A DNA stretch of 55,464 nucleotides from Terriglobia bacterium (GTDB lineage Bacteria; Acidobacteriota; Terriglobia; JAIQFV01). Position 1 is the stretch's first letter; the number at the start of each line of letters is the position of its first letter. The stretch covers positions 1-55,464 of the forward strand of contig JAQUPQ010000028.1 in NCBI GenBank assembly GCA_028716525.1, written 5' to 3'. The translations under genes were made by a program, and so were the position numbers. The notes beneath the pieces are model-generated. The model made no database searches, was not told the origin of the DNA, and worked only from the letters and a program-made list of their open reading frames with translations. Below are positions 33,978 to 46,709 of this stretch, in pieces.

Positions 33978-34010
33978 TTTGCGGTTGGGTTTCGACTTGG
34001 GCTTCTAAAC

Positions 34011-35468
34011 ATGTTCAATCAATATTTTCAGCCGAACGACATTCTGATCATTTACCCGGAACTCTTGCTGGCGTTGTTTGCCATGGGCGTGATGATCATC
34101 GATCTGTTTCTCGACCGCGCCTGGAAAGTGTTGAATGCCTTCACGGCGTTGGTGGGGATTGCCTATGCCGCCTATGCGCTTTATCGGTTGAAGAGCAACG
34201 CCTTGAACCTGAGCGGTTACAACCACGCCATCCTGAACGATTCCTTTGCCATCTATTTTCAGTTTGTCTTCTTGATTGCCACCGCGTTGGTGATTTTGAT
34301 TTCGGCACGATATCTTTCCATCGAAGGGGAAAATCGCGGCGATTATTACGCCTTAATTCTTCTGTCGTTGATTGGAATGAATTTCATGGTGATGGGCATC
34401 GATCTCATCACGCTGTACATCGCGCTGGAGCTGATGGCGGTGTCGGAATACATCCTGGTCGGCTACCTGCGCACCAACCGGCAATCCAACGAAGCCGCCA
34501 TGAAGTTTTTCCTGCTGGGGGCCTTCTCTTCCGGAATTCTGCTGTACGGCATTTCGCTGCTGTACGGTATCAGCGGCTCGACGGATCTGCGCGTGATCGC
34601 GCAGCGGCTGGCGGAGCGTCCTTCACACGACCCCATCGCTTTGGTGGCGGTGGTCACGCTGACCGCCGGCTTATTGTTCAAAATCGGCGGAGTGCCGTTC
34701 CATCAATGGTTGCCCGACGCTTATGAAGGCGCGCCCAGTACGATCACGACATTTATTTCCGTGGCGCCCAAAGCGGCGTCGTTTGCGCTTATCCTGCGCA
34801 TCTTCATTGTCGGTTTGAAACCGTTGGAAACGAGTTGGGTGCCGGTGTTATCGGTGGTTTGCGTTTTGACCATGACGCTCGGCAACATCACCGCCATTTC
34901 ACAATCCAATATCAAGCGTCTGCTGGCCTATTCCTCCATCGCCCATGCCGGGTATCTTCTGCTCGGACTTATCGCCGGCAATGAGTATGGAATTACCGGA
35001 ATTGCCATTTACTTTTTGGTGTATGCCTTTATGAACATCGGCATATGGACGCTGGTGGTCGCCATGCGGCGGAAGGATTTGATTGGAGATCAAATACAAG
35101 ACATGGCCGGCATGATTTATAAAAACCCCGGCGCCGCCGTTCTCATGCTGGTGTTCCTGCTTTCGCTGGCCGGCATTCCACCGACCGCGGGCTTTATTGG
35201 AAAGTATTATTTGTTCGCCTCCGTCATTCAAACTCATCATTACGTTCTGGCCGTCATTGCCGTTCTGAACGCCGCCATTTCGTTGTATTACTATTTCCGC
35301 GTGGTGGTCGTCATGTTCATGAGCGAAAAGACGGACGAGGAAAAGATGACGCTCTCCCCGGGCGTCCTGACCAGCCTCGCCGTCACTTTGGTGTTCACTC
35401 TTCTGATCGGCATCTATCCCGAACCCTTCATTCGGTTTGCGCAGAATTCCCTGTCGCTGTTTCAATGA
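34011..35468 (+). CDS. nuoN: NADH-quinone oxidoreductase subunit N
   Basis: A 485-residue antiporter-like subunit with ~14 helices. Conserved: LYIALELMAVSEYILVGYLR (Glu), LFKIGGVPFHQWLPDAYEGAPSTITTFISVAPKAASFAL, ISQSNIKRLLAYSSIAHAGYLLLGL, SLAGIPPTAGFIGKYYLF. Last gene of the visible nuo cluster; genes for NuoE, F and G do not follow. Confidence 0.97.
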   Translation: MFNQYFQPNDILIIYPELLLALFAMGVMIIDLFLDRAWKVLNAFTALVGIAYAAYALYRLKSNALNLSGYNHAILNDSFAIYFQFVFLIATALVILISARYLSIEGENRGDYYALILLSLIGMNFMVMGIDLITLYIALELMAVSEYILVGYLRTNRQSNEAAMKFFLLGAFSSGILLYGISLLYGISGSTDLRVIAQRLAERPSHDPIALVAVVTLTAGLLFKIGGVPFHQWLPDAYEGAPSTITTFISVAPKAASFALILRIFIVGLKPLETSWVPVLSVVCVLTMTLGNITAISQSNIKRLLAYSSIAHAGYLLLGLIAGNEYGITGIAIYFLVYAFMNIGIWTLVVAMRRKDLIGDQIQDMAGMIYKNPGAAVLMLVFLLSLAGIPPTAGFIGKYYLFASVIQTHHYVLAVIAVLNAAISLYYYFRVVVVMFMSEKTDEEKMTLSPGVLTSLAVTLVFTLLIGIYPEPFIRFAQNSLSLFQ

Positions 35469-35859
35469 CCGCGCGATTTCGCCGCAACCCCCTCGGGGTT
35501 TGCGTGGCATGATGCGATTCATGTCCCAGGGTAGCTCTCCACAGTGCGGAGAGCTAACCCTGGGCTGGAGGCTGTCGCCTCTTCTAGGCAGCCCATCGTG
35601 AGGCCTGAACTGCGCCAAGGGCGCTGTGCCTCAAAGCCCAATGTTGCTCTGATCCGGCACGGATCAGAGCAACGTTGGGAAATGGGTTTGAATCGATTTC
35701 AGAAATGGATTGCGGAATCAAATTTACAATCCCAGCGGGATTGTGGCATTGTTAGTATCCCCCCAATTAATTCCCCCCGCGCGAACCATGCAATGTAAAT
35801 TGTTTACTTTGGACTTCTGATCGTGGATTGAGGGATATTATGCAAGAACACAACGATGG
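35469..35859. repeat. Intergenic region with hairpins after nuoN
   Basis: It holds CTCTCCACAGTGCGGAGAG (about 35526-35545), a TAACCCTGGGCTGGAGGCTG-type element, and an inverted repeat TGCTCTGATCC/GGATCAGAGCA around 35645-35675 that could act as a terminator-like stem without a T-tract. The downstream 130 bp is AT-rich. No gene is recognised. Confidence 0.5.
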
Positions 35860-36828
35860 GTGAGGGCGGCATTTTGGAGTCAAGATGAGCAGGACAGAAT
35901 TGACGAGGATGCTTTGAAAGCGCCGCTTCCAATAGTCGACGGAGTCGCCCCCTCTTGCCGCTGGCTTCCGCCGGGTCCCTGGAAAACAGCTCTCGATTTT
36001 CTGATCGAAAGATACCCCGGAGTTGAAGCCGCAACCTGGCTGTCGCGGATGGCCAAAGGGGAGGTGGTGGATGAAACCGGGCTTCGCCTGAACTCAGAAA
36101 CTCCTTACCGAGTTGGAGCCTGCGTTTTTTACTACCGCAACCTCGAATCGGAAATCATCATCCCCTTTGCGGAGACCATCCTTTATCAAGACGAACATCT
36201 TCTGGTTGTTGATAAGCCTCATTTCTTGCCCGTGCTCCCTTCCGGGCGATTCCTTCATGAAACGCTTCTTGTCCGCTTGAGAAAAAAGGGGGAGCCCGCG
36301 CCGCTGGTCCCCATCCATCGCATCGACCGGGAAACGGCAGGGGTCGTCCTGTTTTCTCGCAATCCGGAAACCCGAAGTCAATACGCAACGCTTTTTCAGG
36401 ATCGGAAAGTGAAGAAGGTGTACGAAAGCCTTGCGCCCACGCATCCAGGGCTCAGTTTTCCCGTGACGCGACACAGTCGAATGGTGGCCGGAGAACCTTT
36501 TTTTCGAATGAAAGAAGTGGAAGGAAAACCGAACTCCGAGACCACCATTGCGGTGCTCCAGGTATTGAGCGGCACGACTCGCTTTCAGATCATTCCCGTT
36601 ACCGGCAGAAAACACCAAATCCGCCTGCATATGTCGGCGTTGGGGATCCCGATTCTTAATGACACACTTTACCCTGAGATGAGATCCTTCGAAGACGACG
36701 ATTTTTCCCATCCTCTCCAACTGTTGGCGAAGTCCGTGTCCTTTCAGGATCCGTTGACCGGGCGAGAACGCTATTTCGAGAGCAGTAGAAAGCTAGAGTG
36801 TGGCGAGGTGACGCTAAACGCTGTTTGA
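35860..36828 (+). CDS. RluA-family pseudouridine synthase
   Basis: A 322-residue RNA-modifying enzyme. The N-terminal ~90 residues include an S4-like segment (ALDFLIERYPGVEAATWLSRM). Catalytic core: ILYQDEHLLVVDKPHFLPV, active-site Asp in HRIDRETAGVVLFS, VKKVYESLAP, and the C-terminal ITGRKHQIRLHM-type motif (VTGRKHQIRLHMSALGIPI). It isomerises specific uridines in rRNA or tRNA; the target cannot be told from sequence. The start is a GTG at 35860 with a weak upstream site, so the N-terminus is uncertain. It may be horizontally mobile: it sits at the border of the repeat-rich accessory region. Confidence 0.88.
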   Translation: MRAAFWSQDEQDRIDEDALKAPLPIVDGVAPSCRWLPPGPWKTALDFLIERYPGVEAATWLSRMAKGEVVDETGLRLNSETPYRVGACVFYYRNLESEIIIPFAETILYQDEHLLVVDKPHFLPVLPSGRFLHETLLVRLRKKGEPAPLVPIHRIDRETAGVVLFSRNPETRSQYATLFQDRKVKKVYESLAPTHPGLSFPVTRHSRMVAGEPFFRMKEVEGKPNSETTIAVLQVLSGTTRFQIIPVTGRKHQIRLHMSALGIPILNDTLYPEMRSFEDDDFSHPLQLLAKSVSFQDPLTGRERYFESSRKLECGEVTLNAV

Positions 36829-36895
36829 TGCAGCCATGCGCCCTGCTGAAGAAGGTGTCGGGTATCAGGTGTCAGGGGCCAGGTGTCAGGCCGAA

Positions 36896-36946
36896 GGTCC
36901 GCCAGGGTTCGCTTGCGTCCTCCAGATTTTTGGGGGATTGGCGGAT
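36896..36946 (+). repeat. ~50-bp dispersed element, copy in plus orientation
   Basis: GGTCCGCC...TCGCTTGCGTC...GGGGGATTGGCGGAT. Related copies are at 8006-8055 (plus, more diverged) and 13322-13372 (minus). Confidence 0.65.
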
Positions 36947-36989
36947 ATCGGGTGTCCGGTTAAATTCTTACTGATCATCAAGTCCGGCT

Positions 36990-37026
36990 GGGTGACGCAT
37001 ACATCGCGCTTTTTGCGATGTGTGCG
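36990..37026 (+). repeat. Island repeat, half copy (left hairpin only)
   Basis: GGGTGACGCATACATCGC then a GCTTTTT loop and GCGATGTGTGCG. This is the left end of the element found complete at 37957, 39805 and 40356, with one stem mismatch. Confidence 0.6.
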
Positions 37027-37530
37027 ACGGGTCTCACCTGACCACTTCCAAATTTCAGTGAGCGATGGAGTCTTCAGCAAATACGTCCCTGAAAGGGACA
37101 TCTTCAATAGCCTAGGGTTGCGTGCTTTGCAACCCTAGGTAGGGAATTGCATCGCGGTTCTAACCCTGAAGGGGTTATCTAAGGCACCAATTGTGAAAAC
37201 TCTGTCGTCCCCGTGATTCACAATCCCAGATCCCTTCTAATGTATGAGGCAATACCTTCCCGGCCTTGACGCGGTTTTTCGGGCGTCGTATAGTCCGGCA
37301 TGTATTTCGGCCCCGCATTGATGTTCCGACGCCACGTCGGATGGATGGCTTTATGATCCCGAATGTTTCCAAACCATCAAAGTTTCCACTTCGACAAAAC
37401 GGCACACGTCGATACAGAAGGTGATTTCATGTTTGAGCTGACATGCGAGGAGATCATGAGGGTATCACAATCTGTGACATCCTCATCCACTACGGAGTTG
37501 GCTGGAGTGGACGTTAGGCCGAGGTAGCAA

Positions 37531-37848
37531 ATGGCCGAGGAACAAGATCACGATCCCTTTGAGGACTGGCGGGAATGGTTGGATCACCGTTACGACCCGG
37601 GTTACTTTTTGGGGGGTCGGATCCATCCCATGTTTCGAGTGAAGCGACCCAGTCCGTTCGGTTGGATATTTCTGGTATTTGGCGCATTTTCTCTGGCGTC
37701 CAGTATTGTAGCCCTCAGAGAGATTTCGTATCTCGCTATCCCATCGGTTGCGATGAGTTTTCTTTGGATTCTTGCTGGCTCGGCTATGCTTACGGAGGAA
37801 AAGCGCCGCAGTCGCGATGAAACAGGACATCATGGACAAAGCGAATAG
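37531..37848 (+). CDS. Small two-helix membrane protein, unknown
   Basis: A 105-residue protein starting at ATG 37531 with GAGG nine bases upstream. The acidic N-terminus (AEEQDHDPFEDWREWLDHRY) is followed by two hydrophobic helices (about 43-62 and 68-88) and a charged tail. No family is recognised. It lies between two copies of the island repeat and reads in the same direction as the other island genes. Confidence 0.55.
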   Translation: MAEEQDHDPFEDWREWLDHRYDPGYFLGGRIHPMFRVKRPSPFGWIFLVFGAFSLASSIVALREISYLAIPSVAMSFLWILAGSAMLTEEKRRSRDETGHHGQSE

Positions 37849-37956
37849 AGGCTGTAGTGTTTGACGTCAGTTGCATTCTGTCGAGTGTCCAGATCTCGCC
37901 ATTTCCTGTTCCCGCGGACGAGCGCTACTGTTGGGCTGATTAGAGCTCTGTAGGCT

Positions 37957-38151
37957 GGGTGGCGCAGACATCGTGTTCTGTACGATGTCTGCGATGAAAG
38001 GCCATGAGTCTCTTTAAGTGGAAAATATGGTTCGTGAAAAGAAGCGTTGTTTGGGCAGAGCATATTTGGTTTTGAAGGTTTCACATCATCAATGCAAACC
38101 CAAAGATTTTCTATCGCAGACATCTCGCAAGTCTCGATGTCTGCGCCACCC
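37957..38151 (+). repeat. Island repeat, copy A (195 bp, hairpin-ended)
   Basis: Ends are a perfect 17-bp inverted repeat: GGGTGGCGCAGACATCG (37957-37973) and its complement (38135-38151). Each end also folds on itself: left hairpin 37963-37993 with a perfect 12-bp stem, right hairpin 38115-38145 with a 10-bp stem. The ~120 bp between them is conserved with copies B and C. Confidence 0.85.
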
Positions 38152-38508
38152 GTCCGACGTCCTCCGTCGGATGGATGGCTTTATGATTGCCCACGTTCCC
38201 CGTTCGGCAGGCGCTTTCTCTCAAGAAAAGCCCGCAGCTTTCTCATGTCCTCAATCGAGGACCGGCTGGCGTTCGCAGCCCTGTAGACGGGATTTGAACA
38301 CCCTCAATGAAGTTGTGTTATGCCGATTCCCATAAGATGTCGTGAAGAACTGCCGGACAGGAAGCAAGCAATTGAAAGCAAAGGTGCAAATATGCCTTCG
38401 GCAAGACATTCAAAAGCGTATTATACGGACAGGGAACGAGAACTCCGCGTCTTACGCGGATCAGTCTAATTGCTGTTGGGCAAAGAACAACAAAAGAAAG
38501 AGAAACAC
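38152..38508. other. Leader region of the wHTH/HEPN gene pair
   Basis: Begins with the CGTCGGATGGATGGCTTTATGAT repeat (38165-38187). On the minus strand ~30 codons after it read as possible coding remnant (IEDMRKLRAFLERKRLPNG). The last 200 bp are AT-rich and likely hold the promoter of the downstream genes; no clear hexamers were fixed. Confidence 0.4.
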
Positions 38509-39048
38509 ATGCCAAAGGCTACGGTAACACTCGCGAGTGGCGCGGTAGTTAATATCGAGGGGGCGACAGCTGAGGTTAAGGACCTCTTGGCGTACTACGG
38601 TGGAGCCACTTCTGACAAACAAGAAAAGCAGAAGGCCGCTCCTGCCCCGAGGTCAGCGGGAAAGCCTACTGAAAAGCCGCAGACTGACGATCTGTCAATT
38701 AGTGAGATCGTGAAGCACGTCAAAGACTGCGACGAGGCGGACGACATTGAGTCGCGAATCCTAGACACGACGAGTCAGGTCAATCGCATTCTTCTACCGC
38801 TTTTCGTTGTGCAGAAGTACATGGGCGGCTCCCACGGTTTGACAACTGGTGAGATCAGCGCCGTCACAAAGGATCTCGGCATTCCCATTCACGTGGCCAA
38901 TGTGTCAAACGCCCTTAAGGGGAGCGCGGCCCGCTACGTTATCGGAGACAAGGTCCGCCGGAAGGGACAGCCTGTTCGGTATTCGCTCTCTCGTCGCGGA
39001 CTCAAGTACATCGAAAACGTGATCAAGGGCAAGAGCGATGGCGAGTAG
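38509..39048 (+). CDS. wHTH-like protein, first gene of a coupled pair, unknown function
   Basis: A 179-residue protein not matched to a named family. Residues 1-32 look like a small beta-beta-alpha unit (TVTLASGAVVNIEGATAEVK); 35-60 is a Lys/Pro/Ala linker; ~62-92 is an acidic helix. Residues ~93-175 have the pattern of a winged helix-turn-helix: LLPLFVVQKY, GLTTGEISAVTKDLGI, HVANVSNALKG, then a wing VRRKGQPVRYSLSRRGLKYI. DNA binding is therefore likely. It ends in ATGGCGAGTAG, overlapping the next gene's start by 11 bases. Flanked by island repeats A and B. Possibly the regulator or antitoxin of a two-gene module (inference). Confidence 0.65.
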   Translation: MPKATVTLASGAVVNIEGATAEVKDLLAYYGGATSDKQEKQKAAPAPRSAGKPTEKPQTDDLSISEIVKHVKDCDEADDIESRILDTTSQVNRILLPLFVVQKYMGGSHGLTTGEISAVTKDLGIPIHVANVSNALKGSAARYVIGDKVRRKGQPVRYSLSRRGLKYIENVIKGKSDGE

Positions 39049-39772
39049 GAAGCAATTCGCAAAGGGTCTTGCACGGCTTGGGCTTTCGCACGTTGACCGA
39101 GCAATAGCATTGCTTTGGTATTATCGCGAAACCCAACTGTTTGATGAACGTTCCCCATCGGAACTCGCCGCCGACTTGCACGAAGAGGACTTCCCAAAGC
39201 CAAATGTCACACGTCTCGGTCAAGAGCTGAGACAAAGTCGATACACCATTGGCGGCAAACGAAAGGGAACTCTCCAGCTTGATGCACGCAAGGTCGACGA
39301 ACTGAACACGAAGTACCTACTCCTGCTGGGCCTCCCAGACGTTCAGGTGAGGGGGGAATACTTGCCTCCTGAATGGACGAACGGAACGCGAAAGTATCTG
39401 GAACAACTCGTTCGTCAGCTCAATGGATGCTACGAGGCAGGCTTCTACGATGCTTGTGCAACGCTATGCAGACGATTGATGGAGTCCTTGATAATCGAGT
39501 GCTACGTAGCAGCTGGGCGACCGCACGAAATCCAGAAGAACGGAGTATTCGTGATGTTGGATGCCCTCGTTTCTACTATCACCACAGATAAGTCAATTCT
39601 GGTTGGCAGAAATACTCCTCCGACGATGCGCGACGTCAAGACTTTGGGCGATACTGCTGCGCATGATCGGACGTATATCACACCCAAACTCGATCTTGAC
39701 GACCTCCGATTGCGTTACAGGCACATGATTCAGGAACTACTGGGGAAAGCCGGGATCAAGCCAAAGCAGTGA
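39038..39772 (+). CDS. wHTH plus HEPN/DUF4145-like protein, second gene of a coupled pair
   Basis: A 244-residue protein. Residues 1-95 again resemble a winged helix domain (HVDRAIALLWYYRETQLFDE, SPSELAADLH, NVTRLGQELRQ). Residues ~115-235 form an all-helical domain with the DUF4145/HEPN-clan look: EAGFYDACATLCRRLMESLI, then MRDVKTLGDTAAHDRTYI with His209, and a terminal DLDDLRLRYRHMIQELL helix. HEPN domains are often RNases in toxin-antitoxin and defence systems, but the strict Rx4-6H motif is not clearly met here. Its start overlaps the upstream stop, so the two proteins are made together. Inferred: an undescribed regulator/effector pair. Confidence 0.65.
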   Translation: MASRKQFAKGLARLGLSHVDRAIALLWYYRETQLFDERSPSELAADLHEEDFPKPNVTRLGQELRQSRYTIGGKRKGTLQLDARKVDELNTKYLLLLGLPDVQVRGEYLPPEWTNGTRKYLEQLVRQLNGCYEAGFYDACATLCRRLMESLIIECYVAAGRPHEIQKNGVFVMLDALVSTITTDKSILVGRNTPPTMRDVKTLGDTAAHDRTYITPKLDLDDLRLRYRHMIQELLGKAGIKPKQ

Positions 39773-39804
39773 ACTGCCCAACCAGACGGTCGAGCGAACC
39801 GGTG

Positions 39805-39983
39805 GGGTGGCGCAGACATCGTGTTCTGTACGATGTCTGCGCGGAAAGGCCTGAATTTCTTTTACTCGACAATATAGCTGGTGAAACAAAGTTGTTTTGA
39901 GCAGAGCTTGTCTGCTTCGCTTTAGAAGTTGTCAATGCAAACTCGAACAATCTCTATCGCCCCGATACATCGGGGCGCCACCC
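39805..39983 (+). repeat. Island repeat, copy B (179 bp, swapped right hairpin)
   Basis: The left hairpin is identical to copy A. The right hairpin is replaced by the palindrome CGCCCCGATACATCGGGGCG (39959-39978), yet the terminal GCGCCACCC is kept. It follows the wHTH/HEPN pair by 32 bp in the same orientation as copies A and C. Confidence 0.8.
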
Positions 39984-40016
39984 ACCGAAGTTTTACAAGG
40001 GGAAAGGAGAATACCG

Positions 40017-40304
40017 ATGCCCAATTATGGTTTTGAAGCGACAAGAGGTTCTAACGGTCAGCCAATAATGGGAGTTACAATTAGACATAATCCTGCTGTA
40101 TGCAATGCTAATGGACTTGTTTGTACAGCACCAGTTTTAACAACCAACACACGACCTTCAGCTCTGGCAACAATGAATGTTCCAGGAGAGATAGCTCATT
40201 ATTTTACTGCGTCATACCCCGGACAGCCGAACGTAGTTGAAAATCAGTATACACTTGGAATGAACCAGGCAAGGTATGTTGAGTTTGTTTTTCCGGGATT
40301 ATAG
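40017..40304 (+). CDS. 95-aa orphan protein between two island repeats
   Basis: Starts at ATG 40017 with a strong GGGGAAAGGAGA ribosome binding site. It is rich in Asn/Thr/Pro (GVTIRHNPAVCNANGLVC, TTNTRPSALATMN) with two Cys close together, and no transmembrane segment. Base use is clearly more AT-rich than the surrounding genes, suggesting recent acquisition. It fills exactly the space between copies B and C. No family recognised. Confidence 0.6.
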   Translation: MPNYGFEATRGSNGQPIMGVTIRHNPAVCNANGLVCTAPVLTTNTRPSALATMNVPGEIAHYFTASYPGQPNVVENQYTLGMNQARYVEFVFPGL

Positions 40305-40355
40305 TGCGATATAAGAGGGTGAGACTGGATCAGATCTCTCCGAGAAAGGGAGGCG

Positions 40356-40552
40356 GGGTGCATACAACGTGTTCTGTACGATGTCTGCGATGAAAGACCC
40401 TGAATTTCTTTTAGTCGAGAATATGATTTGTGGAAAGAAGCGTCGCTTGGGCAAAGCTTGTCTGTTTGATTTTGAAGGGTGACACGTCGCGAACGAATGC
40501 CCGAACATAATGTATCGGAGACATCTCGCACGACTCGATGTCTGCCCCACCC
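40356..40552 (+). repeat. Island repeat, copy C (197 bp)
   Basis: Left end GGGTGCATACAACGTGTTCTGTACGATGTCTGCG with a decayed left stem; the right hairpin GAGACATC...GATGTCTGCCCCACCC is retained. The interior aligns with A and B. Same orientation. Confidence 0.8.
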
Positions 40553-40580
40553 GTCCCAAATCTAGGAGGCAATGCCAAGG

Positions 40581-40710
40581 TTTGGAGTGCGGCGACTATG
40601 GCGCCGCTTTGGATTTTCGCATAGAAAGATGTCACGGCCGAAACAGCGGGGTTACTAAGCTCATCCAAAGCGCCGCCTCAGGCGGCGCACTCCAAGTGTC
40701 TGCGCCACCC
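40581..40710. repeat. TTTGGAGTGCGGCG palindromic element plus island-repeat right end
   Basis: TTTGGAGTGCGGCGAC...GCGCCGCTTTGGAT faces ATCCAAAGCGCCGCC...GGCGGCGCACTCCAA (to 40695). It is followed directly by TGTCTGCGCCACCC (40697-40710), the right terminus of the island repeat, so the element appears inserted into a further island-repeat copy. Related element at 43511-43640. Confidence 0.65.
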
Positions 40711-40762
40711 GTCATTCCGTGAGGCGTCGAATCAATCCTTTTCTTGCTTGAGGAGGCTGTGT

Positions 40763-41812
40763 GTGCGGCGTATTGTCGCGATCTTTTTAATGATGTTGTT
40801 CTGTGGTTCGATGCTAAGTGCGGTTTCTTTGCCGAAACCAGAGCGAGACCCCGTTCCACCCACCGAAGCACAAATCCTTTTGATTAAGGAGGGGGTGCGA
40901 TTTCACGATCAAGGCGACTTTGAGAAGGCCATTGCCAATTATCAGGAAGCCCTCAAGATCAACCCCGATGTCGTAGAAGCCCTTTATGAGCTCTCTTTTT
41001 CTCAGTTTGCGAAAGGGGATTACTCTGAGTCGCTGGCGACAGCCTTAAAAGGGGCTGAATATCGATCCAAGCTGATCGATCAATTATATCTGCAGATAGG
41101 GAATTGTTTGGACAGTCTTGGAAGGACGAAGGAAGCGATTGATGTTTATAAGAAAGCCATGAAAGGCAGTCCGAGTGATTCGCTCCTCTATTTCAACCTT
41201 GCCCTTGCTCAGCAAAACCTGGCGAAAACGAAGGACGCCGAGAAGAGCTTTGAGCGAGCGCTGGTGCTCAATCCCAACCATCCTGGGTCGCACCGGTCAT
41301 TGGGTGGTTTGTATCTGAAGTCCGACCGCAAGATCTCAGCAATGTTGGCCTATCTTCGATTTCTGGTTCTGGAACCGCGATCCTCTCGGGCGGATCAGTT
41401 GTTGCCGACTGTAGAAGATCTGCTGGGGGCCGGTGTCACTCAAACAGGTGAGAATCAGATCGTAATTCCTATCGCCATTGGCAGCGGTAAGAACAAGCTA
41501 TCAGGGATTGATGACATGGGACTTTCGCTCTCGATCGCCCGTGGGGCAGTGTTCATAAAGAAAGAGGGAAAGGAGACGCCAACCGGAATTCAAGCCATCG
41601 CTCAGGAACTCTCCACATTTTTTGCCATAATGGGAGAAAGCTCGGGTGCTAGGAACAAGAGCTTCGTGTCAACTTACTACGTCCCCTACTTCGTCGAGCT
41701 CGGAAAGAAGAACATGGTTGAGCCGTTCTGTTATTTTATTTTCCAAAACAAAAAGGACGCGGACATTTCGCAGTGGCTGAATAGTCACTCGCAAGAAGTT
41801 CAAAGCTTTTAA
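40763..41812 (+). CDS. Secreted TPR-repeat protein
   Basis: About 349 residues. The GTG start at 40763 is set by AGGAGG six bases upstream. A signal peptide (IVAIFLMMLFCGSMLSAVS) is followed by four or more TPR units: GVRFHDQGDFEKAIANYQEALKINP, LYLQIGNCLDSLGRTKEAIDVYKKAM, LAKTKDAEKSFERALVLNPNHP. The C-terminal ~130 residues (from about 220) are a different, unrecognised domain. It probably acts as an envelope scaffold. It lies in the accessory island, on the same strand as its neighbours. Confidence 0.8.
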   Translation: MRRIVAIFLMMLFCGSMLSAVSLPKPERDPVPPTEAQILLIKEGVRFHDQGDFEKAIANYQEALKINPDVVEALYELSFSQFAKGDYSESLATALKGAEYRSKLIDQLYLQIGNCLDSLGRTKEAIDVYKKAMKGSPSDSLLYFNLALAQQNLAKTKDAEKSFERALVLNPNHPGSHRSLGGLYLKSDRKISAMLAYLRFLVLEPRSSRADQLLPTVEDLLGAGVTQTGENQIVIPIAIGSGKNKLSGIDDMGLSLSIARGAVFIKKEGKETPTGIQAIAQELSTFFAIMGESSGARNKSFVSTYYVPYFVELGKKNMVEPFCYFIFQNKKDADISQWLNSHSQEVQSF

Positions 41813-41888
41813 GAATGGTCTAGAAATTATACTTGGCCGAAGGACTAGCAGCTTTAATGGAATCTCCATTGGGTTGGGTGATGCATCC

Positions 41889-42215
41889 ATGAGCTTTGAC
41901 CGAATTGTGCTTGTGTGGGTTTTATGGGTGTTTGGAACGCTGCTGTTGTTGTTTTGCGGTTTGATGTCGATGGCACCGCAGGTCTCCTTGTGGTTTTTTT
42001 TGATATTTCTGTTACTTGCCACGCTTCTGCTCGCGCTGACGATTTGGTTGGGGCAGTCTCAATGGCAAAGCACTGGCGGACAGAACGGCACGGGCAGGGT
42101 GGTACGCGAACGCTCTCGATCTGTGCGCGTCATAGTGGCCCTCGCCGGATTGGAGTTAATAGTGTTTATAGCGTGGTTTTGCCGGTTGCTCGATTTTTCC
42201 TGGCTTGGACTTTGA
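41889..42215 (+). CDS. Small membrane protein, unknown
   Basis: A 108-residue frame starting at ATG 41889 with three hydrophobic segments (about 4-26, 31-52 and 83-103) and a basic loop between the second and third. No family is recognised and no strong ribosome binding site is visible. It is preceded by GGTTGGGTGATGCATCC, which weakly recalls the island-repeat left end, and followed by another half copy. Confidence 0.4.
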   Translation: MSFDRIVLVWVLWVFGTLLLLFCGLMSMAPQVSLWFFLIFLLLATLLLALTIWLGQSQWQSTGGQNGTGRVVRERSRSVRVIVALAGLELIVFIAWFCRLLDFSWLGL

Positions 42216-42224
42216 GAGGAGGTG

Positions 42225-42241
42225 GGGTGGCGCATACATCG
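42225..42241 (+). repeat. Island repeat, degenerate left end
   Basis: GGGTGGCGCATACATCG matches the left terminus of copy A with one mismatch; the rest of the element is not recognisable. Confidence 0.5.
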
Positions 42242-42490
42242 TGGCGTGTGGTGAAGGACTGGCTTGGTAACATGTCTTGGCCTCATCCTTTCCTCGTGGA
42301 ACAAGCATTCCTGATTTAGAGATTTGTGATACGCTCTTCAACGCGGACATCGAAAGGAAGTTGATGCCGCTCTATCCGTCTGCCGGCTTAAAGAACAGCC
42401 GGTGCTACCCGCAAAATCTGCCAACCCTTCGACCCCACCGAGATTGATGGTTTTGGTTGGGTCACCAGGTGAAAGAAAGGCGGCACGAAC

Positions 42491-43354
42491 ATGGGACTTT
42501 TAACCAATGTGGTCGGAAACGAGACGCAGGAGGAAAAGATCAACCGTTTATGGGAGAGTGCCAAGAAGCTCGACTGGTCGGATGCCGAGCGGCAGAAAGC
42601 TGTGGGCATCTATACAGAACTGCTGGGAATGATCGATGAGAGTACACCCTCCTTTAACGTGTGTGCCATTTTTCGCAACCGCGGTATTTCATATCGCCAC
42701 CTCAAGAATTACGACGCGGCACTTCAGGATTTTGCCCGGGAGCTCGAGATTGCCCGACGGCGCGACGATCAGATGCGCGTCATGGAATGCCAGAAAATTA
42801 CCGAGGAAACCCAGGAACAGAAGAGAAAAGCCGAAATCGAGGCGGGCGGAGGTGAGAAAGCCGCAAAGCTTCGGGCCATGGCCGATCTTGAGATGAACCT
42901 CTGGGGCAACACGCCCGACGCGGGGAGGGCCTTCGAAAGTCTCTTTGCCGATCTGGAGAATGAGGATGCGGATGTCCGCGCCGAGGCCTCGCGGCTGTTG
43001 GCGGATCCGCCGAAATCAGCCCAGAGATTGATTGCCGTTTTTGAAGAGTGCCGGGAAACGAATCCCTATCGGTCACAGCTCGCGGGACGGGTGCTCGGAC
43101 GCAAAATTACCAAAGGAATGGATCACACGATTCATTCCCAGATCGCGCGGATGATGTATGGATTGAATATTTCGTTCATCCCCTGCGGTTGCGTCCATTG
43201 CGGCTTTTTCAACAAAGGAATTGCCGCTCCGCCCAATGGTCCCATGATGGCTTACTATCATCAGGTGGATGACAAGGGCGCTTACGCTATACCGGTACTG
43301 TGTGATCGGTGCGGAAAGAAGTTCTTCGTGGTGTGGGACAGCAATCCCCTTTGA
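42491..43354 (+). CDS. TPR/HEAT-like protein with C-terminal zinc ribbon
   Basis: A 287-residue protein, ATG 42491 after GAAAGG. Residues ~20-100 form a TPR-like pair (ERQKAVGIYTELLGMID, RGISYRHLKNYDAALQDFA), followed by a charged coiled-coil-like helix (~100-125). Residues ~135-200 form a HEAT-like segment (LENEDADVRAEASRLLAD). The C-terminal ~70 residues hold CGCVHCG and CDRCGKKFFVVWD, a probable zinc ribbon. No named family. The mosaic suggests a cytoplasmic adaptor with nucleic-acid or protein binding. Last clear gene of the island run before the MITE at 43.5 kb. Confidence 0.6.
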   Translation: MGLLTNVVGNETQEEKINRLWESAKKLDWSDAERQKAVGIYTELLGMIDESTPSFNVCAIFRNRGISYRHLKNYDAALQDFARELEIARRRDDQMRVMECQKITEETQEQKRKAEIEAGGGEKAAKLRAMADLEMNLWGNTPDAGRAFESLFADLENEDADVRAEASRLLADPPKSAQRLIAVFEECRETNPYRSQLAGRVLGRKITKGMDHTIHSQIARMMYGLNISFIPCGCVHCGFFNKGIAAPPNGPMMAYYHQVDDKGAYAIPVLCDRCGKKFFVVWDSNPL

Positions 43355-43463
43355 GGAGCCGGGACTGGACGTGATGCGGAGCATCTTGTGCGACAGCCGC
43401 GCATCCGCTTCCAGCTCCGAAAGCGACTAAGGCCTCTGCCGCTCTTAATGGGGCGGCCTCATC

Positions 43464-43663
43464 CTAGGAAGTTGCTGAAAAACTGAATTTCCAGTGAGAC
43501 GATGGGCCATTTTGGAGTACGGCGCCATCGGCACCGTTTTGGATAGGTCGCAAAATATCCAATTCTTGGGTCTTAACTTCACTCCGCATCCAAAGCGGCG
43601 TCGCGTCCGCCTTCAGCGGACTTGCCGCCGCACTCCAAAATCTGCTTTTCAGCAACCTGCTAG
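43464..43663. mobile_element. 200-bp MITE-like element
   Basis: Terminal inverted repeats CTAGGAAGTTGCTGAAAA (43464-43481) and TTTTCAGCAACCTGCTAG (43646-43663) match at 16 of 18 positions, with CTAG at both outer ends. Inside is a TTTGGAGTACGGCGCC...GCCGCACTCCAAA palindromic element (43511-43640). No transposase is encoded, so it would be non-autonomous. Confidence 0.65.
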
Positions 43664-43748
43664 GCGCCGCGTAACATTTCCCGATCCTCCGTTGTCCGCC
43701 GATCCGACCTGTTCGGGTAATCCGTGATGCCTGTTTCAGGAATTATGC

Positions 43749-43778
43749 TTTACAATGCAAAGTTCTTTTCATTACAAT
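43749..43778 (+). promoter_or_regulatory. Candidate sigma-70 promoter
   Basis: TTTACA (43749-43754), an 18-bp spacer, TACAAT (43773-43778), 51 bp ahead of the next gene start. Confidence 0.45.
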
Positions 43779-43829
43779 AATCCATATCTTTTTGGCTTCG
43801 AACACAAATCCCGTTCAGAGGGTGGTCGG

Positions 43830-44120
43830 ATGGATCTTTCAACACTCAAAAAGCCCAGCGCTCTGCTTCCTATCGGAATGTCGTTGGCCGCGTTGGCCGT
43901 TGTCGGCGTTCACATTGTTCTTTACGGAACGGCCCGGGCGGCTGACGAGGGCACGGCGGCACATCTGTGGCAGATCCTCATGGCCGGTCAGCTGCCGATC
44001 ATGCTGTTCTTCGCCTTCAAGTGGCTGCCCCGATCTCCCAAACCGGCACTCTTGGTCGTGTCTCTGCAAATCCTGGCCGCTTTAGCGGCGGCCGCGCCCG
44101 TTTACATTTTTAGTCTTTAG
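43830..44120 (+). CDS. Small three-helix membrane protein, unknown
   Basis: A 96-residue protein from ATG 43830 with GAGGGTGG upstream. Hydrophobic segments at about 13-33, 45-63 and 72-94, with short charged loops. The frame continues upstream but crosses the candidate promoter. No family is recognised. It lies alone between a MITE and a tandem repeat. Confidence 0.55.
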   Translation: MDLSTLKKPSALLPIGMSLAALAVVGVHIVLYGTARAADEGTAAHLWQILMAGQLPIMLFFAFKWLPRSPKPALLVVSLQILAALAAAAPVYIFSL

Positions 44121-44127
44121 AAGCTCA

Positions 44128-44155
44128 CCGCAGAGGCGCCGAGGGCGCTGAGCGG
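44128..44155 (+). repeat. ACCGCAGAGGCGCCGAGGGC dispersed repeat
   Basis: The best preserved copy of the family also seen at 8.1, 17.6 and 28.8 kb. Confidence 0.5.
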
Positions 44156-44231
44156 TGGTAGCGCCGGCCGTTCTTTCAGCCGGCGGCTTTTGGGGGGGGA
44201 TCGCCCCGCCCTGGAGAACGGGCTGCGAGAA

Positions 44232-44384
44232 AATGGGGACAGACACCGGCTGCACAATAGTTCCACGAGATGCCAAGCGTTAGGTGTCTGTCCCCATTCA
44301 AGTCCACGAGATGCCAAGCGTTAGGTGTCTGTCCCCATTCAAGTCCACGAGATGCCAAACGTTAGGTGTCTGTCCCCATTCGAG
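44232..44384. repeat. 41-bp tandem repeat, three units, with inverted flank
   Basis: Units 44262-44302, 44303-44343 and 44344-44384 differ at only two or three positions. Each contains GGTGTCTGTCCCCATT. An inverted single copy AATGGGGACAGACACC lies at 44232-44247. The array ends exactly at the stop codon of the GAF-domain gene. Confidence 0.85.
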
Positions 44385-44834
44385 TCAAAACCTTGTTGCC
44401 AATAATTCAGCAACGGATTCGAGGAGCACCTGGTCGGCGCCACGGAAGGCCGAGGGAGCATCGCTGTCGATATCGATTTCCCCAACAATGCGCTTGTCAC
44501 AGCGGATGGGAACCACAATTTCAGAGCGCGTCTCGAGCGAACAGGCCAAGTAGCGGGAATCGGCGTTCACATCGGACACGTTGATGGTGTGCCCCTCGGC
44601 AGCCGCGGCGCCGCATATTCCTTGACCAATGGCGATGCGGACGTGCGGCGAGGGTCGACCCAGGTAGGTCTTCAACACCAAATCCTTGCCTTCCACCAGG
44701 TAAATGCCGACCCAGGTGAAATGAGCAAAGTTTTCTTTCAATAGCCGCACGGTTTCGTCGAACACGCGATCATTGCTGGCTTGTGAGGAAACCAGAGCTT
44801 CGATGGATTCAAGAACGGGTGTGGATGAGGTCAT
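44385..44834 (-). CDS. GAF-domain protein similar to free methionine-(R)-sulfoxide reductase
   Basis: A 149-residue single GAF domain. The pattern matches fRMsr: WVGIYLVEGKDLVL, IGQGICGAAAAEG (Cys74), VSDVNADSRYLACSLETRSEIVVPI (Cys98), IVGEIDIDSDAPSAF. fRMsr enzymes use up to three Cys; the first, in the loop before the VRIAIG strand, is absent here (the sequence is GRPSPHVRI). It may therefore be a two-Cys reductase or a non-catalytic sensor. It is the last of a minus-strand redox group (redoxin, thioredoxin reductase, Rieske), though not tightly spaced. Confidence 0.75.
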   Translation of the reverse strand: MTSSTPVLESIEALVSSQASNDRVFDETVRLLKENFAHFTWVGIYLVEGKDLVLKTYLGRPSPHVRIAIGQGICGAAAAEGHTINVSDVNADSRYLACSLETRSEIVVPIRCDKRIVGEIDIDSDAPSAFRGADQVLLESVAELLATRF

Positions 44835-44889
44835 GTGGAATTAATGATTTTTTTTGTTGCGCGATTTCGCGATTGAGCGAATTGAAGAC

Positions 44890-45000
44890 CCCGCACCAAA
44901 GACAGCAAACAAAAGCTATAAGCCCCAAGCCTTAAGCGAGAAGACCGGGCCCCAAGACCCAAGACCCAAGACCAAAACAAAGACTCAGTGGAGCATATTC
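44890..45000. repeat. Low-complexity AAGCCCCAAGACCCAAGACC-type repeats
   Basis: Short imperfect repeats (CCAAGACC, AAGCC) in the gap between the GAF and redoxin genes; similar low-complexity DNA lies at 45550-45750. No gene. Confidence 0.45.
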
Positions 45001-45045
45001 ACTAATTTGAAGATAGCGCCGACGGCGCTAGGCATTTTTAGAGCT

Positions 45046-45540
45046 TCAGCCAGGCTTGTAATCCGGCACGTCGTCTTTCTTGGTGAACACCGGAGCCGCC
45101 GGCAGACCGGTGCGTTGCGCGATCTCCTTCGAAAGATCGATAAGACCCTGCTTATCGAACCCCACCATGGTTTGAAGAATTTTCCCGTCGTGATCAATCA
45201 AAAAAATCGAGGGGACGTTCGTCAACCGGTATTTCGCAGAAACAGAATAGGGGTGATCGTCAAGCGCAACGGGAAACGTCAATCCGTACTCCGAGGCGAA
45301 ACGTTTTGCCTCCTCGGCGTCGTTCTCTGCAATTCCCAGCATTTCGACAGGCGCATCCTTATAAGCACCATGAATCTTCTCTAGAAACGGTACCGTCAAC
45401 TGGCAGATGGGGCATTCCTTCTTGAAGAACGCCGCCACAACGAGTTTTGACTGTCGCTCCGCCTCGAGTTGATGCTTCTTGCCGTCCGTTCCTTCCAATG
45501 AAAAATCAGGAGCAATGGTTCCTGGAGATAAAGCGGGCAT
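45046..45540 (-). CDS. Thioredoxin-like redoxin with CPIC motif
   Basis: A 164-residue protein of the AhpC-TSA/TlpA-like superfamily. APDFSLEGTDGKKHQLEAE opens the fold; FFKKECPICQLTVPFLEKI carries a CPxC redox site; NVPSIFLIDHDGKI is the cis-Pro loop. There is no signal peptide, so it is probably cytoplasmic, where it could act as a thiol peroxidase-like or thioredoxin-like reductant. A thioredoxin reductase gene lies 236 bp upstream on the same strand, which fits a shared electron path (inference). Confidence 0.85.
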   Translation of the reverse strand: MPALSPGTIAPDFSLEGTDGKKHQLEAERQSKLVVAAFFKKECPICQLTVPFLEKIHGAYKDAPVEMLGIAENDAEEAKRFASEYGLTFPVALDDHPYSVSAKYRLTNVPSIFLIDHDGKILQTMVGFDKQGLIDLSKEIAQRTGLPAAPVFTKKDDVPDYKPG

Positions 45541-45614
45541 AAAAGAAGACCCTCCAAACAGATATCAGACTTCAGACATCAGACTTCAGACTCAAGACCC
45601 ATGACTCAAGCCAA

Positions 45615-45742
45615 AAGCCATAAGCTTCAAGCCCCAAGCGCTATGATCCAAGACATGGAGCTTAGGCATGCAGGCTGCTGGATTTTCGAGTTTTGGCATT
45701 GAGCCTTGTGTCTTATAGCTTTGGGCTTGAAGCTTATGGCTT
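45615..45742. repeat. 20-bp perfect inverted repeat, 88-bp loop
   Basis: AAGCCATAAGCTTCAAGCCC (45615-45634) and its exact reverse complement (45723-45742), between the redoxin and trxB genes. The loop is low-complexity. It could form a cruciform or an RNA hairpin. Confidence 0.75.
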
Positions 45743-45776
45743 CTGCGTCTTGTTGCATAATTCTTATGATGCCGTA

Positions 45777-46709
45777 TCATGAATGTTCGTTCAAAAAATG
45801 TTCGGCGTCGATGGCGGCCATGCAGCCGGAGCCCGCAGCGGTAATGGCTTGGCGATAGACATGGTCCTGGACGTCGCCCGCCGCAAACACCCCGGGCACA
45901 CTGGTGTGAGTGCTTCCCTGCTTGGGAATAATATACCCGGCCTTGTCCATTTCAAGCTGGCCTTGAAACAGTTTGGTATTAGGCTCATGCCCGATGGCGA
46001 TGAAGAGCCCGTCACATTTAAAATCGGACTCCTGACCCGTTTTCAAATTCTTCAAACGTACTCCCTTGACTTCATTAGCTTGGACGTCGTGAACATCGCT
46101 GACCGTGGAGTCCCAAATGAACTTGATTTTCTCATTCTTAAAGGCGCGGTCTTGCATGACTTTGGAGGCGCGCAGGGAGTCGCGGCGATGCACAATAGTC
46201 ACCTGGTTTGCATATTTCGTCAGAAACGTTCCTTCTTCGATCGCGGAGTCGCCGCCGCCCACCACCACCACTTCCTTGCCGCGGTAGAAGAAGCCGTCGC
46301 ACGTAGCGCATGTGGATACGCCATGGCCCATAAGTTTTCGTTCCGATTCCAGGCCCAGCAGCCGCGCCGAGGCGCCGGTTGCGATGATCAGAGTTTTGGT
46401 TTGAAAGGTCCGATTTTCATCCAGGAAAACCTGAAAAGGACGCTTGGAAAGATCAACCTTCTGGACGGCGCCTTGCAGAACATCCGCCCCGAAGCGTTTG
46501 GCCTGCTCCCGCATGTCGTCCATGAGCTGTGGACCCATGATGCCGTCTCGAAAGCCCGGAAAGTTTTCAACCATGGTCGTGAGCGTGAGCTGTCCTCCGG
46601 CTTCGTAACCTTCCACGACCAAGGGATGCAGGTTTCCGCGGGCAGCGTAGACGGCGGCCGTGAGACCGGCGGGTCCGGAACCGATGATGAGAACGTTGCG
46701 AATGTCCAT
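45777..46709 (-). CDS. trxB: Thioredoxin reductase
   Basis: A 310-residue FAD/NADPH flavoprotein. FAD motif [17 protein letters not shown] (residues 8-24), redox-active CATC (Cys134, Cys137) in [19 protein letters not shown] motif [12 protein letters not shown], and a C-terminal [13 protein letters not shown]-binding segment. It reduces thioredoxin-type partners in the cytoplasm. Length and all motifs are standard. GGAG lies just upstream of the start. Neighbours (CPIC redoxin, GAF/fRMsr-like protein) suggest an oxidative-stress repair set. Confidence 0.96.

Follow-up and report, generated by a model that had tools for sequence, protein, structure and literature searches.

Hairpin-ended repeats between small genes

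Within the 55,464-nucleotide window (the whole stretch of Terriglobia bacterium DNA that was analysed), small genes between positions 36990 and 42241 are interspersed with copies of a repeat that ends in hairpins, raising the question of whether the repeats are sites of gene capture or members of an ordinary repeat family. An earlier note had read the region as a cassette-like accumulation site, driven either by REP/MITE recombination or by an undescribed system of folded-site gene capture. We find that the element has REP anatomy with conserved pairing, that its hairpins are dispersed on both strands of the genome, and that genes for RAYT (REP-associated tyrosine transposase) adjoin them in related genomes. 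With a probability that we put at about 0.88, the element is a REP doublet (BIME or REPIN) belonging to a REP family of the Acidobacteriota. Of the earlier inference, the REP/MITE half is thus borne out by dispersal and by the RAYT link, and the gene capture half is not.

The repeats themselves are real and comprise three diverged copies of ~195 bp, a solo hairpin and fragments, all within 36990-42241. A full end consists of GGGTGG followed by a hairpin, CGCAGACATCG-loop-CGATGTCTGCG, and the two ends of an element are inverted to each other. Copy 1 (37957-38151, plus strand, 195 bp) has a REP at 37957-37999 (plus), a linker and an inverted REP at 38109-38151 (minus); its inverted ends extend over 46 nt, are 78% complementary and also fold individually, and its folding energy lies far below that of shuffled sequences (z = -6.8). 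Copies 2 and 3, both on the plus strand, are 76-78% identical to copy 1. In copy 2 (39805-39983) a REP at 39805-39847 (plus) is paired with a right end at 39953-39983 (minus) in which the GGGTGG foot is retained and the stem is another one (CGCCCCGATACATCGGGGCG), and in copy 3 (~40353-40552) a degenerate left REP at 40353-40395 (plus) that barely folds is paired with a right REP at 40510-40552 (minus). The earlier description of the element was largely right, including the positions of all three copies, of which only the third needed adjustment, its start moving from 40356 to ~40353; the claim that inverted ends each fold into their own hairpin holds for copy 1.

Two further sites had been listed as half copies. 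The first, at 36990-37032 (plus), is instead a complete solo REP with a GGGTGA foot and a perfect 13-bp hairpin (51 bits with covariance model R1; fold of -20.9 kcal/mol), and the second, at 42225-42241 (plus), is indeed partial, being a REP remnant of foot and left arm without a hairpin (12 bits with the covariance model). Absent from the earlier list were an inverted REP fragment (GGGTGGCGCAGACA...) at 40689-40710 on the minus strand, which is a weak covariance-model match, and an unrelated hairpin-bearing repeat, TTTGGAGTGCGGCG...GGCGGCGCACTCCAA, which was read directly in the sequence at ~40578-40697 and adjoins copy 3. Another short repeat, CCGACG..CGTCGGATGGATGGCTTTATGAT, occurs at 37325-37370, upstream of 37531, and at 38155-38200, adjoining copy 1.

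Six hairpins in the window scored strongly with a covariance model built from the GGGTGG-hairpin ends, and each of them lies inside the 36990-42241 region; Rfam gave no match within 34000-46000. Across 14 ends from the window genome, 93% of cells were paired in the true register, as compared to 8-56% when the register was slid. Stem pairing in these ends is kept through compensatory changes, with 10 cells changed on both sides, a count reached by none of 500 shuffles, although it serves as supporting evidence only because the ends were picked by their similarity to the motif. The linkers of the three full copies share one orientation, as had been reported, but this agreement would arise by chance one time in four and carries little weight.

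The hairpin family is dispersed on both strands

A REP doublet does not move autonomously; a cognate RAYT (TnpA-REP, HUH/Y1) transposase is believed to copy it, as a single strand, into intergenic DNA. The presence of such a RAYT in the same genome is a usual trait of a REP, BIME or REPIN, not an obligatory one. Published descriptions of a REP specify a hairpin preceded by a GT[A/G]G foot (PMC6006769, PMC8266576), and a REP with an inverted REP around a linker constitutes a BIME or REPIN (PMC8266576, PMC6006769, PMC3116915). The window elements conform to these descriptions, with a palindromic unit of the specified 20-50 nt that bears a GT[A/G]G-type foot and occurs both as inverse pairs around a linker and as singlets.

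The family is also multicopy and dispersed on both strands. In the window genome (G000; 4.2 Mb in 104 contigs, 96% complete), the core pattern had 78 forward and 67 reverse matches with three or fewer mismatches, as opposed to 17 and 18 for a reversed-pattern control. On about 20 contigs the covariance model recovered hairpins at E <= 0.001, at least 56 in all, a lower bound since only 150 candidates were scored. Two genomes of the same family (G001 and G002) hold about 50 hairpins each, and seven other genomes of the class hold none at E <= 0.001. A search of related acidobacterial genomes, as the earlier note had proposed, found the exact hairpin in 51 loci, all in records named Acidobacteria or Terriglobia and many of them inverted doublets that span 80-140 bp. 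No copy of the full 195-bp linker type turned up outside the window cluster.

The window cluster has a counterpart on contig C5 (42000-59900), where similar hairpin blocks are repeated in one orientation; two such blocks of 184 nt, for example, are 90% identical and lie 7.6 kb apart. There the blocks separate ordinary large genes in both orientations, encoding a MacB-like permease, phospholipase B, an M20 peptidase, an FAD-dependent oxidoreductase and NrfD. The directly oriented layout that the earlier note described is thus not specific. Random scatter of the copies in both orientations, with no tie to gene presence or absence, was the outcome that the note had reserved for an ordinary REP family; the scatter is what we observe, and that outcome is largely borne out.

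Alternatively, the element might be a MITE belonging to a DDE-type transposon, its GGGTGG... ends acting as terminal inverted repeats and the internal hairpins incidental. Such a reading would suit a non-coding element of 195 bp whose 46-nt inverted ends are 78% complementary, and MITEs that carry REP pairs of this kind do exist in the window genome. However, each end is a hairpin of its own with a REP foot, the GGGTGG-hairpin unit also occurs as solo hairpins and as singles flanking RAYT genes, the outer terminal repeat of those MITEs was not found in the window, and no target duplication was evident on inspection, which together make this reading improbable.

The REP-bearing MITE of the window genome has terminal repeats GGTAGTGACTCATTTTGAAT, contains two inverted REPs of this family at its centre and is present in about 18 copies (loci L025, L027, L028, L031, L035 and others). 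Some REP doublets of G021 likewise lie inside another inverted repeat, such as ATTACTTTGTTAAGTT in locus L131, and the nesting of REP pairs within MITEs may recur. With about 18 dispersed REP pairs residing inside a different MITE, part of the family's dispersal need not be RAYT-driven.

RAYT genes lie beside the repeat in related genomes

The association of this REP family with RAYT genes was found in five other genomes, two of which are of the same family as the window genome. Y1 transposases were taken from genomes with REP-adjacent pieces of RAYT, and a group was defined by a 183-aa query, P0001, together with genes 50-61% identical to it. P0001 scores 101 bits against a cut-off of 80 for the NCBIfam REP-associated tyrosine transposase equivalog and has both the HUH (HFH) and Y (YMHHNP) motifs. 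The group comprises eight full-length or nearly full-length genes, in G001, G002 (three), G021, G022 and G025 (two). Each of them has a REP at most about 125 bp away that is either a family member or a close variant; the variants are those of G025, with a GGCTGG foot, and of locus L234 in G002, with a GGGTGC foot. REPs flank the gene on both sides in seven of the eight (in six of them at 145 bp or less from either end), the exception being locus L229 of G001, where REPs were seen on the 3' side only. Several of the 51 exact-hairpin loci carry pieces of RAYT directly next to the REP, among them L114, where a RAYT begins about 20 bp past a REP, and L115, which has the end of one. At about 50 REPs in 6 Mb, density alone would rarely bring one to within a few hundred bases of any particular gene.

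The window genome itself yielded no P0001-type RAYT, and the window no RAYT remnant, so that the REP copies there look orphaned. With an assembly of 104 contigs at 96% completeness, the gene may be absent from the assembly only. REP-bearing species whose REPtron was eliminated by deletion have been published (PMC3733652), and the missing cognate RAYT accordingly does not disqualify the element as a REP.

The window genome encodes ten Y1 transposases. The most RAYT-like of its genes, at C6:54394-54786, falls under the curated cut-off and is flanked by GGTGTCTGTCCCC repeats, which belong to a different repeat family. Three 41-bp tandem copies containing the same GGTGTCTGTCCCC motif are present in the window at 44262-44384. 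As a candidate RAYT beside this REP we also considered the nearest Y1 transposase, found on contig C3 at a distance of 2 kb from a REP pair; it has other repeats at its own flanks and was rejected.

Genes between the copies

The gaps between the elements hold plus-strand genes, a regularity that carries little information since between 30182 and 52633 almost every gene is encoded on that strand. An overlapping pair (38509-39048 and 39038-39772, plus strand) lies between copies 1 and 2, a 95-aa ORF (40017-40304, plus strand) with a G+C content of 42%, compared to 54% for the window, lies between copies 2 and 3, and a gene for a TPR-repeat protein (40763-41812, plus strand) lies downstream of copy 3. 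Gaps between gene and element range from about 10 to 360 bp, with several genes beginning or ending 10-50 bp from an element. The 95-aa ORF had no family match and no match in plasmids or viral contigs, and PADLOC and PHROGs gave nothing specific for defence or phage origin among the intervening genes. Among 249 other genomes of the class, distant homologues of gene 39038 occur patchily, in 5 (6 of 250 including its own), and the flanks examined in those five carry no such REP hairpin. Same-family genomes, the closest compared, share rluA alone with the window locus, and the surroundings are not syntenic.

REP doublets of this family could also serve as recombination points that gather foreign genes locally, with RAYT or homologous recombination between same-orientation copies exchanging the genes in between. 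We regard such exchange as very unlikely.

Also very improbable is folded-site capture of the integron type, in which the elements would be recombination sites and the genes between them exchangeable cassettes. The local layout, with several genes 10-50 bp from an element, the low G+C of one intervening ORF and the patchiness of gene 39038 all speak for it. Against it, a search of the plus strand over 36900-42300 found no attC core pair (RYYYAAC and GTTRRRY spaced by about 55-140 bp), and no integron integrase scored above the curated cut-off in the genome, in agreement with the earlier note, which had seen neither attC sites nor an integrase. Furthermore, the element ends are spread genome-wide on both strands, homologues of gene 39038 elsewhere lack the element, and the C5 cluster separates ordinary large genes. 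The integrase family search did return one fragment, the C-terminal part of an integron-type integrase (locus L246, G000:C2:189279-189572; 142 bits over 98 positions in a frame of 113 aa), apparently a remnant.

It is likewise very improbable that these are regulatory or terminator hairpins, locally duplicated, immobile and kept between genes for expression. In favour of this reading are strong hairpins in intergenic gaps and the confinement of three diverged long-form copies to one place; against it, no run of T was read behind the hairpins in the sequence, and the GGGTGG-hairpin unit is spread over unrelated sites and genomes and attached to RAYT genes. The hairpins may nonetheless affect expression as a side-effect.

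On the REP doublet reading, a unit is a GTGG-type foot followed by a hairpin, with two units inverted around a linker. A RAYT would have moved the window copies, the window genome may have lost its cognate enzyme, and local multiplication of the 195-bp linker subtype could have produced three copies in the same orientation. As for the small genes, they are probably no more than bystanders, set in intergenic DNA that is rich in repeats. Against the REP/RAYT account stand the lack of a P0001-type RAYT in the window genome, the residence of about 18 REP pairs in a different MITE, the three same-orientation copies, which it does not explain in detail, and the confinement to this cluster of the 195-bp linker subtype, whose mobility is putative.

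Comparison with known systems

With integron cassette arrays (attC/IntI) the locus shares layout only, small genes in one orientation with folded sites between them; unlike those arrays, it has no attC cores and no intact IntI, and its elements are dispersed and RAYT-linked. An integron-like suspicion is thereby settled as an ordinary REP family.

Closer parallels come from the Acidobacteriota themselves. The TIRYT/TIRtrons and RAYT-associated repeats of acidobacteria are tyrosine transposase genes flanked by inverted, partly self-complementary repeats (PMC3733652 figure 9; PMC6006769 class 3), and some of the flanking repeats are members of repeat families arranged as dimers or clusters (PMC3733652; PMC6006769). 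By description the present family resembles these repeats; identity of its GGGTGGCGCA hairpins with the TIRs of Koribacter and Terriglobus (PMC3733652 figure 9) would be conjecture. REP/RAYT biology in Acidobacteriota has so far been described only in part, and a GGGTGG-hairpin family of many uncultured members is now tied to RAYT genes. Moreover, the apparently orphaned REPs of the window genome, set against same-family genomes that keep the RAYT, offer a possible natural test of REP persistence without the enzyme.

The REPINs and BIMEs of Pseudomonas and Escherichia (Bertels and Rainey 2011, PMC3116915; PMC8266576) differ from the element in having a GTAG rather than a GTGG foot and doublets of 71-110 bp, in contrast to the longer linker of the 195-bp element; the long perfect stem of about 11-13 bp and the failure to find a cognate RAYT in the window genome also set the acidobacterial element apart. 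Like them, however, it is an inverted REP pair around a linker in which each REP is a 4-base foot with a hairpin, and its family is dispersed in both orientations, forms singlets as well as clusters, and lies next to a RAYT gene, here in other genomes.
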